A DNA stretch of 64,000 nt, taken from positions 3,109,001-3,173,000 of the forward strand of contig OU744446.1 in assembly GCA_916610825.1 (NCBI GenBank), given 5' to 3'. Below the pieces are notes generated by a model. It saw only the letters and a program-made list of their open reading frames with translations. It ran no database searches and had not been told where the DNA came from. Each line of letters opens with the position of its first letter. Positions within the stretch are counted from its first letter, which is position 1. Source of the stretch: Haliclystus octoradiatus. Taxonomy: Eukaryota; Cnidaria; Staurozoa; Stauromedusae; Haliclystidae. Made by a program: the position numbers and the translations under genes. Positions 9,415 to 16,363 of the stretch are shown here, piece by piece.

Positions 9415-9433
9415 ATTTCTATCTATCTATCTA

Positions 9434-12234
9434 AGCCCAAAAAAATTATACAAAACAGTACTTACATTGGCATTTCAACAAAGTATTGTAATATATTTTG
9501 TTTTTACTTTCCTCCAAATGTACACATTTCTACTATACTATATGATATTTCATCAGCTTTAAGTGCTGTGCCAAATGGACTACCATCCTTAATCTTTGGA
9601 GATTTTAACTGTAGAATTGATTCCACAAACCGTGGTGCTCAACTTGTTGAGTTCTTGCATCAAACTGGTATTTTCCTAATAAATGATCCTAAAGAATATA
9701 CATACATTTCATCAAACGGAAATAGTACAATTGACCTTGTTTTTAGCAACACCGCCTTCACAGATGTCAAGCAACACAGTATTGTAAAAGGATGCCAGAG
9801 AAAACATCAAAGAGTCCTGACAACCTGGAGCCTCAACCAAATAAACCAAGACCAAAAACAGCATGTCAAAAAACTGCAACGAAAAGTCAACACAGAGCTA
9901 CTTATTAAGCATCCAAACTTAGAACTAGCAGAGAAAGCTATTGAAATGGAAGATCTAGAAAATGCTCTTAAATTAATCGAATCAGCACTCACTGAATGTT
10001 GCCCTGAAATCAAAGAAACCCATCACTATAATAAACCTTGGTTTGATATTGAATGCAGAGAAAAGAAAAAATCAGTATTGTATCTACTTGACAAAATTAT
10101 GAGAGGTTCAGGAAATCAGCTACTTCGAGATCAATATTCTACAGAGAGGAAAAGTTATCGCTCACTTTTGATGTCAAAAAAGGCCATATATAACGAAAAT
10201 CAAATTTTAAGAACTATTGAACTTTCTATCAAAAAGCCTTGGCTCTTGTTCAAAACCCGTCATTCCAAAAAATCAATACCAATTTCACATGAACACATTC
10301 TTAGTCATTTTAAAAATCTATACGATCCTTACAACAAACCACCAACTTTCAACTTAGATTCACTAAATATTCTTGTAGATGGTTGGTTTAATGAATTGTT
10401 TCAAGAAGACGAAGTTCTACAAGCTATATTGCAAACCTCAACTCGTAAAGCAGCAGGACTTGATAACATTACTAACGAACACTTAATACTTTCTCTTGAT
10501 CAGCTACTTCCTTTATGGACATCTTTGTTCAATCTATGCCTCAAACTTGGAACTATACCTAATAACTGGAACAGAAGCAGAGTAATTCTACTGTATAAAG
10601 GTAAAGGTGTAAAAATTGACCCCAATAATTACCATGGCATTTCCTTACTCTGTTGCCCCCTCAAAGTTTTAACAAGTCTCATAAACAGTAAACCTAAACC
10701 AAATTGCTTTCATTTAATTCCACCAGAGCAATTTGGCTTCCAAGAAGAAAAAAATACGTCACAACCATTACAGCTATTGATAGACTCTATCAAAGACCAA
10801 TTTTCTAAATCATCCACACCTAGATCCACTTATTGCTGTTTTGTAGACTTTACTAAAGCATTTGACAATGTAAATCGTGACATTCTAGTTCAGAAAATGA
10901 AGAACACTTTTGGTATAGATGGATTGCTTCTTCGTCTTATTTGTTCACTTTTAAAAGGAAATGAGATTTCTATTGACGATGGTATAAAGCTATCTACACA
11001 AATTATTCAAAACCACGGTGTTGTCCAGGGAGATTGTCTTTCGCCAACCCTATTTATCATTTATCTTTCCGACTTGGCTGAAGTTCTACGTAATATACCA
11101 AATCTAAGTTTTCATTTTTTGCTGATGATCTTGTTTTTTACTCCCCTGACAAAGAAGCTGTACAGGATGGTTTAGATATTTTGCAAACATAATGTTACAC
11201 AAATGCATTAGAAGTCAACCTGAAAAAGACCAAAATGATGAAATTCCGCAAAGGTGGCACTATCAGCAAAAGAGACATTTTCATATACAATAAGGAACGT
11301 GTGGAATTTGTTAAAAGCTATGAATATCTTGGTGTTATTTTACAACAATCGTTAACCTTCACTTTACATCTAATGAACAAGTTACATAAATGCATTCTCA
11401 CAATAGGTGCTATACCACATTTAAAGAAAGTCTCTCTTCAAGCATCGCTAAATATTTTTGACATGAATATCTCTCCGATGGTTACTTATGCTTTTCCAGT
11501 CATTGCACCATTTATCACAGCAAACCAATTTCTCTACCTTGATCGTATCAAAGCTACATATCTCAAACGTGCCCTTGGGGCCCATATATCTGCTTCAAAT
11601 ACTTTAATTTACATATTTACAAACACTAACCTTCTAACAAAAGATATTGAACATTTGTTCCCTTTTAATTTTGAAGAACTTTCAAAATGTTTTGAAAACC
11701 GCAAAAATAAAAATAGTTAAAGTATTCCAAAAAGGGTATGGAGCCGCCCCTGCCTTACAATCATCTGGTTGGCAAGCAGCAAATCAATTAAATCGAAACT
11801 ACATCATCCGCTTGTCAATCCATGGCTTTCACCATCTTATCTGTACAAATAATATTTTTCATGATCCTGACGATAATTGCCTATGTAAAGAGTGTGGTGA
11901 TTCAGCAAATGATCGATATCATATTTTACACTGCCAACAAATATCATCATATATACAATTTGTAAAAGCCGCAGAACAAAATTGACTATTGATATCTTAA
12001 ATAATCTAAATTGTCTATTAAATTTTCAAAAATATATCAAATCAATAACAAAATAATAATTGACATAAATTATTAGCAGCATATTATGAATTACAGAATA
12101 TTATATATGATATATATTCACATTAACTGAATAAAAGCAAATCAGAACAATCATATACAAAATTAAACTAGACTATACTCTTAAATAACTGATGTATTAC
12201 AACAAATATTTATCTCGAATTGAGATGCAAATAT
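9434..12234 (+). mobile_element. APE-type LINE, copy A (5'-truncated, broken)
   Basis: This copy begins abruptly at AGCCCAAA immediately after a short (CTAT)n tract (9417-9433), and ends at TGAGATGCAAAT just before a long (ATCT)n array. It is nearly identical to copy C at 13068-16056 but starts about 180 bp further in, so the two are separate truncation events or one was trimmed later. It carries apurinic-type endonuclease, reverse transcriptase and a C-terminal CCHC region. Clade is not assigned: the RT motifs are clear, but I cannot place them confidently among the APE-type clades. Confidence 0.9.
9436..11985 (+). pseudogene. LINE ORF2 (endonuclease-RT-CCHC) of copy A, broken
   Basis: The reading frame covers part of the endonuclease (LIFGDFNCRID, then NSTIDLVFSN) and the RT (KAAGLDNITNEH, NNYHGISLLCCPLKVL, CFVDFTKAFDNVN, GVVQGDCLSPTLF). 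A single-base deletion at about 11108, just before the catalytic FADD box, shifts the frame. A TAA at 11190-11192 replaces a TGG of copy C. The frame resumes at 11235-11720. The last domain, in the next frame (about 11647-11985), has a CX2CX8HX3C zinc motif. Compared with copy C it also has an Arg-to-His change in the NNYRGIS motif. It cannot make a working protein. Confidence 0.9.
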
Positions 12235-12594
12235 ATCTATCTATCTATCTATCTATCTATCTATCTATCTATCTATCTATCTATCTATCTATCTATCTAT
12301 CTATCTATCTATCTATCTATCTATCTATCTATCTATCTATCTATCTATCTATCTATCTATCTATCTATCTATCTATCTATCTATCTATCTATCTATCTAT
12401 CTATCTATCTATCTATCTATCTATCTATCTATCTATCTATCTATCTATCTATCTATCTATCTATCTATCTATCTATCTATCTATCTATCTATCTATCTAT
12501 CTATCTATCTATCTATCTATCTATCTATCTATCTATCTATCTATCTATCTATCTATCTATCTATCTATCTATCTATCTATCTATCTATCTATCT
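12235..12594 (+). repeat. (ATCT)90 microsatellite, 360 bp, uninterrupted
   Basis: This is a pure tetranucleotide array between the 3' end of LINE copy A and the 5' end of LINE fragment B. The repeat reads Tyr-Leu-Ser-Ile in any forward frame, which creates spurious long open frames. It serves at once as the tail of copy A and the upstream border of fragment B. Confidence 0.98.
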
Positions 12595-15526: not shown

Positions 15527-16056
15527 AATAGTTGAAGTATTCCAAAAAGGGTATGGAGCCGCCCCTGCCTTACAATCATCTGGTTGGCAAGCAGCAAATC
15601 AATTAAATCGAAACTACATCATCCGCTTGTCAATCCATGGCTTTCACCATCTTATCTGTACAAATAATATTTTTCATGATCCTGACGATAATTGCCTATG
15701 TAAAGAGTGTGGTGATTCAGCAAATGATCGATATCATATTTTACACTGCCAACAAATATCATCATATCTACAATTTGTAAAAGCCGCAGAACAAAATTGA
15801 CTATTGATATCTTAAATAATCTAAATTGTCTATTAAATTTTCAAAAATATATCAAATCAATAACAAAATAATAATTGACATAAATTATTAGCAGCATATT
15901 ATGAATTACAGAATATTATATATGATATATATTCACATTAACTGAATAAAAGCAAATCAGAACAATCATATACAAAATTAAACTAGACTATACTCATAAA
16001 TAACTCATGTATTACAACAAATATTTATCTCGAATTGAGATGCAAATATATCAATC
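13068..16056 (+). mobile_element. APE-type LINE, copy C (best preserved)
   Basis: This copy runs from TTCTCCTGAAACTG directly after an (ATCT)n tract to the same TGAGATGCAAATAT terminus as copy A, followed by a new (ATCT)n array. Only scattered substitutions separate it from copy A, so both are recent. It starts inside the N-terminal part of the endonuclease; the true start and any ORF1 are missing. Lack of a poly(A) or other distinct tail and the abutting microsatellite fit an element whose 3' end is the ATCT repeat itself. Confidence 0.92.
15462..15800 (+). CDS. LINE C-terminal CCHC domain in the +1 frame of copy C
   Basis: This frame overlaps the end of the RT frame and continues past its TAA. 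It encodes VFQKGYGAAPALQSSGWQAA, then NRNYIIRLSIHGFHHLIC and the zinc motif CKECGDSANDRYHILHC (C-X2-C-X8-H-X3-C), ending with TGA near 15800. Such a C-terminal knuckle normally belongs to the same polypeptide as the RT and is thought to bind RNA or target DNA. The switch occurs at a run of six A followed by TAA. Copy A shows the same switch, so it was either inherited from a shared parent or reflects recoding. Confidence 0.75.
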   Translation: MNICSLLILKNFQNVLKTAKNKIVEVFQKGYGAAPALQSSGWQAANQLNRNYIIRLSIHGFHHLICTNNIFHDPDDNCLCKECGDSANDRYHILHCQQISSYLQFVKAAEQN

Positions 16057-16363
16057 ATCTATCTATCTATCTATCTATCTATCTATCTATCTATCTATCT
16101 ATCTATCTATCTATCTATCTATCTATCTATCTATCTATCTATCTATCTATCTATCTATCTATCTATCTATCTATCTATCTATCTATCTATCTATCTATCT
16201 ATCTATCTATCTATCTATCTATCTATCTATCTATCTATCTATCTATCTATCTATCTATCTATCTATCTATCTATCTATCTATCTATCTATCTATCTATCT
16301 ATCTATCTATCTATCCATCTATCTATCTATGTATCTATGTATCTATGTATTTATGTATCTATC
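16057..16363 (+). repeat. (ATCT)n array after LINE C, with degenerate end
   Basis: The array is pure ATCT from 16057 to about 16314, then carries CCATCT and GTAT variants through about 16363. The variants sit only at the distal edge, as expected if the pure part was added or expanded most recently next to the LINE terminus. Confidence 0.95.

Follow-up and report, generated by a model that had tools for sequence, protein, structure and literature searches.

Why do three retrotransposon copies lie head to tail on one strand of the Haliclystus octoradiatus genome, each bordered on both sides by the same simple repeat, (ATCT)n? This arrangement occupies positions 9418 to 16363 of the window, i.e. 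the 64,000 nucleotides analysed here (C1:3109001-3173000), where two long interspersed nuclear elements (LINEs), A and C, enclose a fragment, B, of a third. A first-pass annotation had proposed a LINE that targets a microsatellite. Our work supports this overall idea with one change: the repeat that had been taken for the tail of the element is better seen as its target. Very probably, A and C, which belong to one family, and B, which belongs to another, are separate insertions of 5'-truncated LINEs with an APE-type (apurinic/apyrimidinic) endonuclease inside (ATCT)n. The locus was compared with copies elsewhere in the genome (261,861,806 bases, 33 contigs); loci fetched from the genome are labelled L and contigs C, each with a number.

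Results

The locus consists of the following features (positions in the window):
9418-9433, + strand: (ATCT)n at the 5' border of A, what remains of the putative target tract
9434-12233, + strand: LINE A, family A/C, 5'-truncated, with endonuclease, reverse transcriptase (RT) and C-terminal Cys/His motif; frames broken
12234-12593, + strand: (ATCT)n, ~90 units, between A (3' border) and B (5' border)
12595-13038, + strand: fragment B, from the 3' end of an element that belongs to the same clan but to another family, with C-terminal Cys/His motif and 3' untranslated region
13039-13068, + strand: (ATCT)n, ~7 units, between B (3' border) and C (5' border)
13069-16056, + strand: LINE C, family A/C, 5'-truncated; longest open stretch 13070-15523 (818 amino acids: endonuclease, RT)
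16057-16312, + strand: (ATCT)n, imperfect with variant units to about 16363, 3' border of C

Mapping of tracts and elements confirmed that A, B and C lie on one strand with ATCT, read on the + strand, at every 5' and 3' border. The near-identity of A and C, also described in the first-pass annotation, holds as well: they share 98.8% identity over 2,800 aligned bases, and A begins 179 bases inside the start of C. Thus, the 5' ends of the two elements differ. B is distinct from A/C: elsewhere in the genome, the copies nearest to it share 97% identity with B, and between the two families open reading frame 2 (ORF2) is 52% identical. The 46 columns directly before the tract at 9418-9433 are 87% like the sequence that precedes the tract of L007.

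Five families of this clan were sampled: A/C, B, D, F3 and F4. The aligned parts of their ORF2 are 47-60% identical, the closest pairs being D with A/C (55%) and F3 with F4 (60%). The RT of C and D matches the Pfam family RVT_1 (E ~1e-33), and their N-terminal endonuclease matches Exo_endo_phos and Exo_endo_phos_2 above the cut-off. To judge by these domains, the elements are non-LTR (long terminal repeat) retrotransposons with an APE-type endonuclease. The endonuclease motif RKHQ is present in all five families (read at L066:1956-4745, L069, L099 and L021), whereas two other LINEs of the genome, K1 and K2, have SDH, the canonical motif. Pfam and solved structures place the RT only at the level of "LINE": the best solved-structure relatives of D, LINE-1 ORF2p (58.3 bits) and R2 (57.7 bits), score alike. 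CCHC zinc knuckles in ORF1 are typical of the R1 clade; a zf-CCHC domain was found neither in ORF1 of A/C and D at E values up to 1 nor in ORF1 of F4 and the partial ORF1 of L031 at E values up to 0.01, so that the ORF1s searched do not show this mark of the R1 clade. With its APE domain, ORF2 does not qualify as the site-specific type with a restriction-like endonuclease (R2, R4/Dong, NeSL/Togen and HERO), although no separate search for a restriction-like domain was made.

Near-complete A/C copies reach about 4.5 kb. In L018, an ORF1 of about 434 codons, which matches no Pfam family above the cut-off, is followed by an ORF2 that is frameshifted in this copy; ORF2 of L020 is open over 924 amino acids. 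Since B copies are about 99-100% identical across their shared parts and ORF2 frames of 928-957 amino acids are open among the scored matches to the RT of D, the sequences point to recent activity. Downstream of a B copy, L031:2402-3433 holds an ORF1-like frame with a Cys/His-rich stretch that looks PHD-like by eye and has no Pfam match.

The main evidence for targeting comes from the 5' borders. A border was scored as positive if a perfect ATCT run of at least 12 bases ended close upstream in the same orientation. This was the case for 26 of the 33 A/C borders examined, and for 24 of 31 when the A and C of the window are set aside. Applied to the 53,700 positions of the window that lie outside the finding, the rule is satisfied at 45, and at none of them when the orientation is reversed; the ATCT borders are thus not due to chance. 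The copies counted were those examined from two A/C searches with 40 candidates scored in each. L055 (89% identity) is included; left out were L057, L058, L060 and L061 (divergent, with an unclear border or of another family), L059 (ATCC border), L062-L064 (3' ends like those of D), L024 (N in the upstream sequence), search rows that were not fetched (e.g. C5:9257555) and pieces of copies already counted. L019 and L053 (C6:4626830-4634300) share one 5' inversion and were both counted; merged as one event, they give 25 of 32. The inverted piece of L019 ends in GGCTATCTATCTAC before the element start. Twin priming is a known outcome of target-primed copying and fits the 5' inversions of L019 and L053; the pair looks like a local duplication of a twin-priming product.

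The B family behaves in the same way. If the border is taken as the point where near-identical copies stop matching, 13 of 14 independent B borders lie at ATCT (7/7 in a first set, five further ones and the B of the window), and the counted borders have distinct truncation points. One of the first seven, L030, has a gap of 21 bases between border and tract; the B copy in L069/L031 was left out for want of a longer copy for comparison. For F3 and F4, six borders in three fetched clusters were read: F3 of L067, the first F4 of L068 and the second F4 of L069 start at the tract as compared to a longer copy, the first F4 of L069 does so as judged by ORF1 only, the F4 of L067 is preceded by degenerate ATCT, and the second F4 of L068 by a filler of 42 bases. 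The D borders are too few for a tally: ATCA was found at L102, L106 and L107, ATCT at L104/L105 (one event), and further cases are L068 and the arrays. Among the 20 windows of one set, the 5' border was unreadable in L101, L103, L114-L117 and L120, and no D 5' end was found at the predicted full-length positions in L090-L093. A/C and B appear to be nearly strict for ATCT, F3 and F4 seem alike on few copies, and D is looser. A/C and B thus have what marks a microsatellite-specific LINE, i.e. borders inside the repeat and a fixed orientation; D has it only in part.

The tabulation of flanks that had been proposed as a check was run on part of the copies and bears out the idea that ATCT tracts serve as targets: the 5' flanks of A/C and B are mostly ATCT, and neither a majority of other flanks with ordinary target duplications nor an origin of the locus in one segmental duplication was seen for these two families.

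The 3' ends bear on what the tract is. Of the seven distinct A/C 3' junctions listed, four read ...GCAAATATATCAATC before the tract (the ending is also written ...ATATATCAATC, then ATCT); LINE A of the window lacks the last bases of this 3' end. F4 ends in ...GTAAATATATATC and B in ...GTTTAC, both before ATCT. The D family ends in ...GATGCAAATATATGACAC (...GACAC). In arrays, (ATCA)n follows and the units lie head to tail; in L032, L068, L081 and L087, (ATCT)n stands directly after the 3' end; elsewhere D is followed by non-repeat DNA. The repeat that adjoins D varies with the site, and therefore the tract is target DNA rather than a tail encoded by the RNA. It had been claimed that the LINE itself ends in ATCT; this does not hold for D. 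By analogy with D, we infer that the tract is also the target of A/C, B, F3 and F4. For D itself, a site with AT(C) at the start of its top strand seems to be enough: the family occurs in both repeats, (ATCA)n and (ATCT)n, and also in ordinary DNA.

The arrangement in the window is repeated elsewhere in the genome. Among 88 scored matches to the RT of D (of 3,899 first-look candidates), 56 fall in 20 clusters, and all 36 neighbour pairs at most 12 kb apart lie on the same strand, where random placement of the 88 matches would give about 0.35 pairs. The fetched clusters mix families: L067 holds an A/C end, F4 and F3; L068 an A/C end, D, F4 and F4; and L069 an A/C end, F4, F4 and B. In addition, B and D are mixed at C11:10875-10890 kb according to search matches. 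In several cases the 5' tract is itself preceded by the 3' end of another clan element, namely F3 before L051, L034 and L036 and B before L033. According to the first-pass annotation, each insertion makes a new target for the next and so builds an array. The one-strand mixed clusters fit the building of arrays, as does a tract that is split with target left on both sides; the gain of new repeat by insertion found no support. As a separate observation, a short ATCT tract lies at window positions 28657-28672; part of its upstream sequence resembles the sequence upstream of the tracts of L050 and L054, and it is perhaps an old clan tail.

The LINE K1 was chosen as a control for its many near-identical copies (L121, L131-L138; C1:19771000-19777200 and others). 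In four windows, all three readable 5' borders (L132-L134) lie at (ATC)n, L135 holding no border, and all four 3' ends read consist of (CAAA)n and then (ATC)n. K1 thus proved to sit in (ATC)n itself and fails as a non-targeting control. A weak match to a GDSL-like lipase in its ORF1 falls below the cut-off. In RT comparisons, K1 scores 131 bits to D and so stands closer to the ATCT clan than K2 does with 69 bits; K1 scores 58 bits to K2. K2 ends in a short (AC)n followed by other DNA in all four copies read, and its 5' border at L128, the sole resolved one in seven K2 windows, lies in non-repeat DNA.

The window also contains, away from the locus, a (TAA)n tract of 1.9 kb (about 645 units, 54852-56787), a DDE_Tnp_4 transposase fragment (22257-22940, - strand) and a DUF5641 domain (27284-27817, + strand).

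Discussion

How could such an arrangement come about? We suggest that the endonuclease nicks the (AGAT)n strand, probably at 5'-AGAT^AGAT-3', a phase that would follow if the element ends in C before ATCT; for D in ATCA, the corresponding site would be TGAT^TGAT. The 3'-OH of the nick would then prime reverse transcription at the 3' end of the RNA, and the truncated complementary DNA would be joined at its other end within the tract. Repeat would stay on both sides, and because of this the same place could be hit again, so that elements would accumulate head to tail.

Several observations weigh against separate, targeted insertion, or at least limit it. The border rule was fixed after the borders had first been inspected. 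Seven of the 33 A/C borders have no tract (L005, L037, L039, L040, L046, L048 and L054): in L005 the border adjoins a 3' end resembling that of B, in L037 it lies at an ATGT tract (C8:7398900-7399500), L048 is followed by short ATCT pieces and then (ACAT)n, and L054 is rearranged. The one B border that misses the tract, L109, has 40 bases of A+T-rich filler. Target-site duplications are unreadable within a repeat. The non-targeting control is thin, with the single 5' border of K2 at L128. Moreover, strict targeting does not appear to be a property of every family of the clan: non-repeat DNA, mostly beginning with AT or ATC, follows D in 16 of 20 sampled 3' flanks. These flanks are CGAAAT rows in listed order from 100 of 158 matches, with array rows other than L070 omitted; L075 and L088 represent the same site in duplicate, and the 20 windows are too short to tell a D LINE from a short non-autonomous relative. 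Beside D RT matches, three of four 3' flanks (L085, L094, L095 and L096) are non-repeat. Finally, local duplication has contributed: the pairs L104/L105, L112/L113 and L118/L119 each have the same truncation point, L019 and L053 share their inversion, and D units from C8 resemble those from C10 (99.6%) more than they resemble one another within a contig (about 97%), and therefore duplication adds to the arrays. As an observation on its own, the A/C relative L059 (90%; C1:8546000-8547000) has an ATCC tract at its 5' border; together with the ATGT of L037, this is perhaps a near-miss target.

Three other explanations of the locus have to be weighed. The first is template jumping: after a single priming event, one RNA after another would be copied, with a passage from the 5' end of each to the tail of the following one, and an array would be made at once. 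This would account for head-to-tail arrays with mixed families, and yet the outermost 5' end should then have a border without repeat, whereas L045 and L047 have ATCT there. In the DNA beyond these two tracts, there was no match to any of the 3' ends known for the clan (five in all) or to other upstream sequences in the comparison, though unknown families could have escaped it. Since the D copies, in addition, carry no repeat of their own, we regard template jumping as the origin of the locus as improbable.

The second explanation, that these are ordinary LINEs to which reverse transcription adds a tail of ATCT, is still less likely. Many LINEs carry short repeated tails, and the K2 copies, with their (AC)n followed by other DNA, are of this kind. 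The ATCT at the 5' borders would then be a coincidence, or a result of nesting in abundant tails. The frequency of such borders (26/33 for A/C against 45/53,700 background positions) argues against this, as does the D family, which lacks a tail and adjoins the repeat of its site; for the other families this second argument is an analogy only. The weakest explanation is that one element was duplicated together with the ATCT on its flanks, segmentally or in tandem. It has in its favour the pairs with the same truncation and the inversion seen twice, but it can hardly apply when A and C differ at the 5' end, B belongs to another family, the counted B borders have distinct truncation points, and the clusters hold several families each, which one segmental duplication cannot explain. 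On the evidence of borders, D and clusters, we have rejected a repeat-tailed LINE, template jumping as the main cause and a single segmental duplication.

Beyond the separate insertions at this locus, it is tempting to speculate that a whole clade of APE-type LINEs, marked by RKHQ in place of SDH, forms a guild of repeat-dwelling elements: the families would share (ATCT)n and insert beside one another's 3' ends, and the sister family D would also use (ATCA)n and be partly released into ordinary DNA. We consider this a serious possibility, though one with somewhat less than an even chance of being right. If true, a one-base change of a microsatellite target could be traced between sister families in one genome. 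As K1 sits in (ATC)n, the targeting of microsatellites may have spread in this genome, or it may have had more than one origin there.

Site-specific LINEs are an example of how a retrotransposon can persist while doing its host genome little harm, and they are of interest for targeted gene insertion. In the ATCT clan, sister families whose reading frames are open occupy repeats that differ by a single base (ATCT as opposed to ATCA); they also differ in strictness, all within the same genome and with an unusual endonuclease motif that the five sampled families share. The gain, loss or change of a target by an APE-type endonuclease thus becomes testable with proteins that are about 55% identical. 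Our work also offers an origin for long clusters of LINEs on one strand.

Microsatellite-specific LINEs are a known kind. Waldo and Mino of the R1 clade and some members of the Tx1 clade belong to it, and insertion into simple repeats is common to such elements and the ATCT clan; unlike them, the clan has a tetranucleotide target shared by several families and a sister family, D, that uses another repeat. The TRAS and SART elements of Bombyx resemble the clan in that they are APE-type LINEs that lie in one orientation in a short tandem repeat, but their repeat is telomeric whereas the tracts of the clan are dispersed within contigs. A literature search confined to open-licence papers, with most subscription journals outside it, gave no report of an ATCT-specific LINE, which means little, and none of a target shared in this way, of a sister family in ATCA or of the common RKHQ motif. 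Among the elements described in passages of the papers found, Togen, in (TG)n, and some HERO families insert in simple repeats (PMC4640811), DongAg and DongBg lie in microsatellites (PMC3636483), and microsatellites are listed among LINE targets (PMC5035012). The same passages assign Dong (R4), HERO and Togen (NeSL type) to groups whose endonuclease is restriction-like (PMC4640811, PMC3636483), whereas the ATCT clan is of the APE type. A parallel for the arrays is Zepp, an L1 element of Chlorella and Coccomyxa which, as described, is nested by insertion into its own copies and thereby forms tandem arrays mostly of 3' ends (PMC8226300). Nested insertion and tandem arrays are thus common to both systems; Zepp is clustered at centromeres in that account, whereas the ATCT clan has many clusters, several families and a target in ATCT. 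What looks new, in comparison to these systems, is the ATCT target shared by families of APE-type LINEs, the sister family that uses ATCA, and the RKHQ motif that they have in common.

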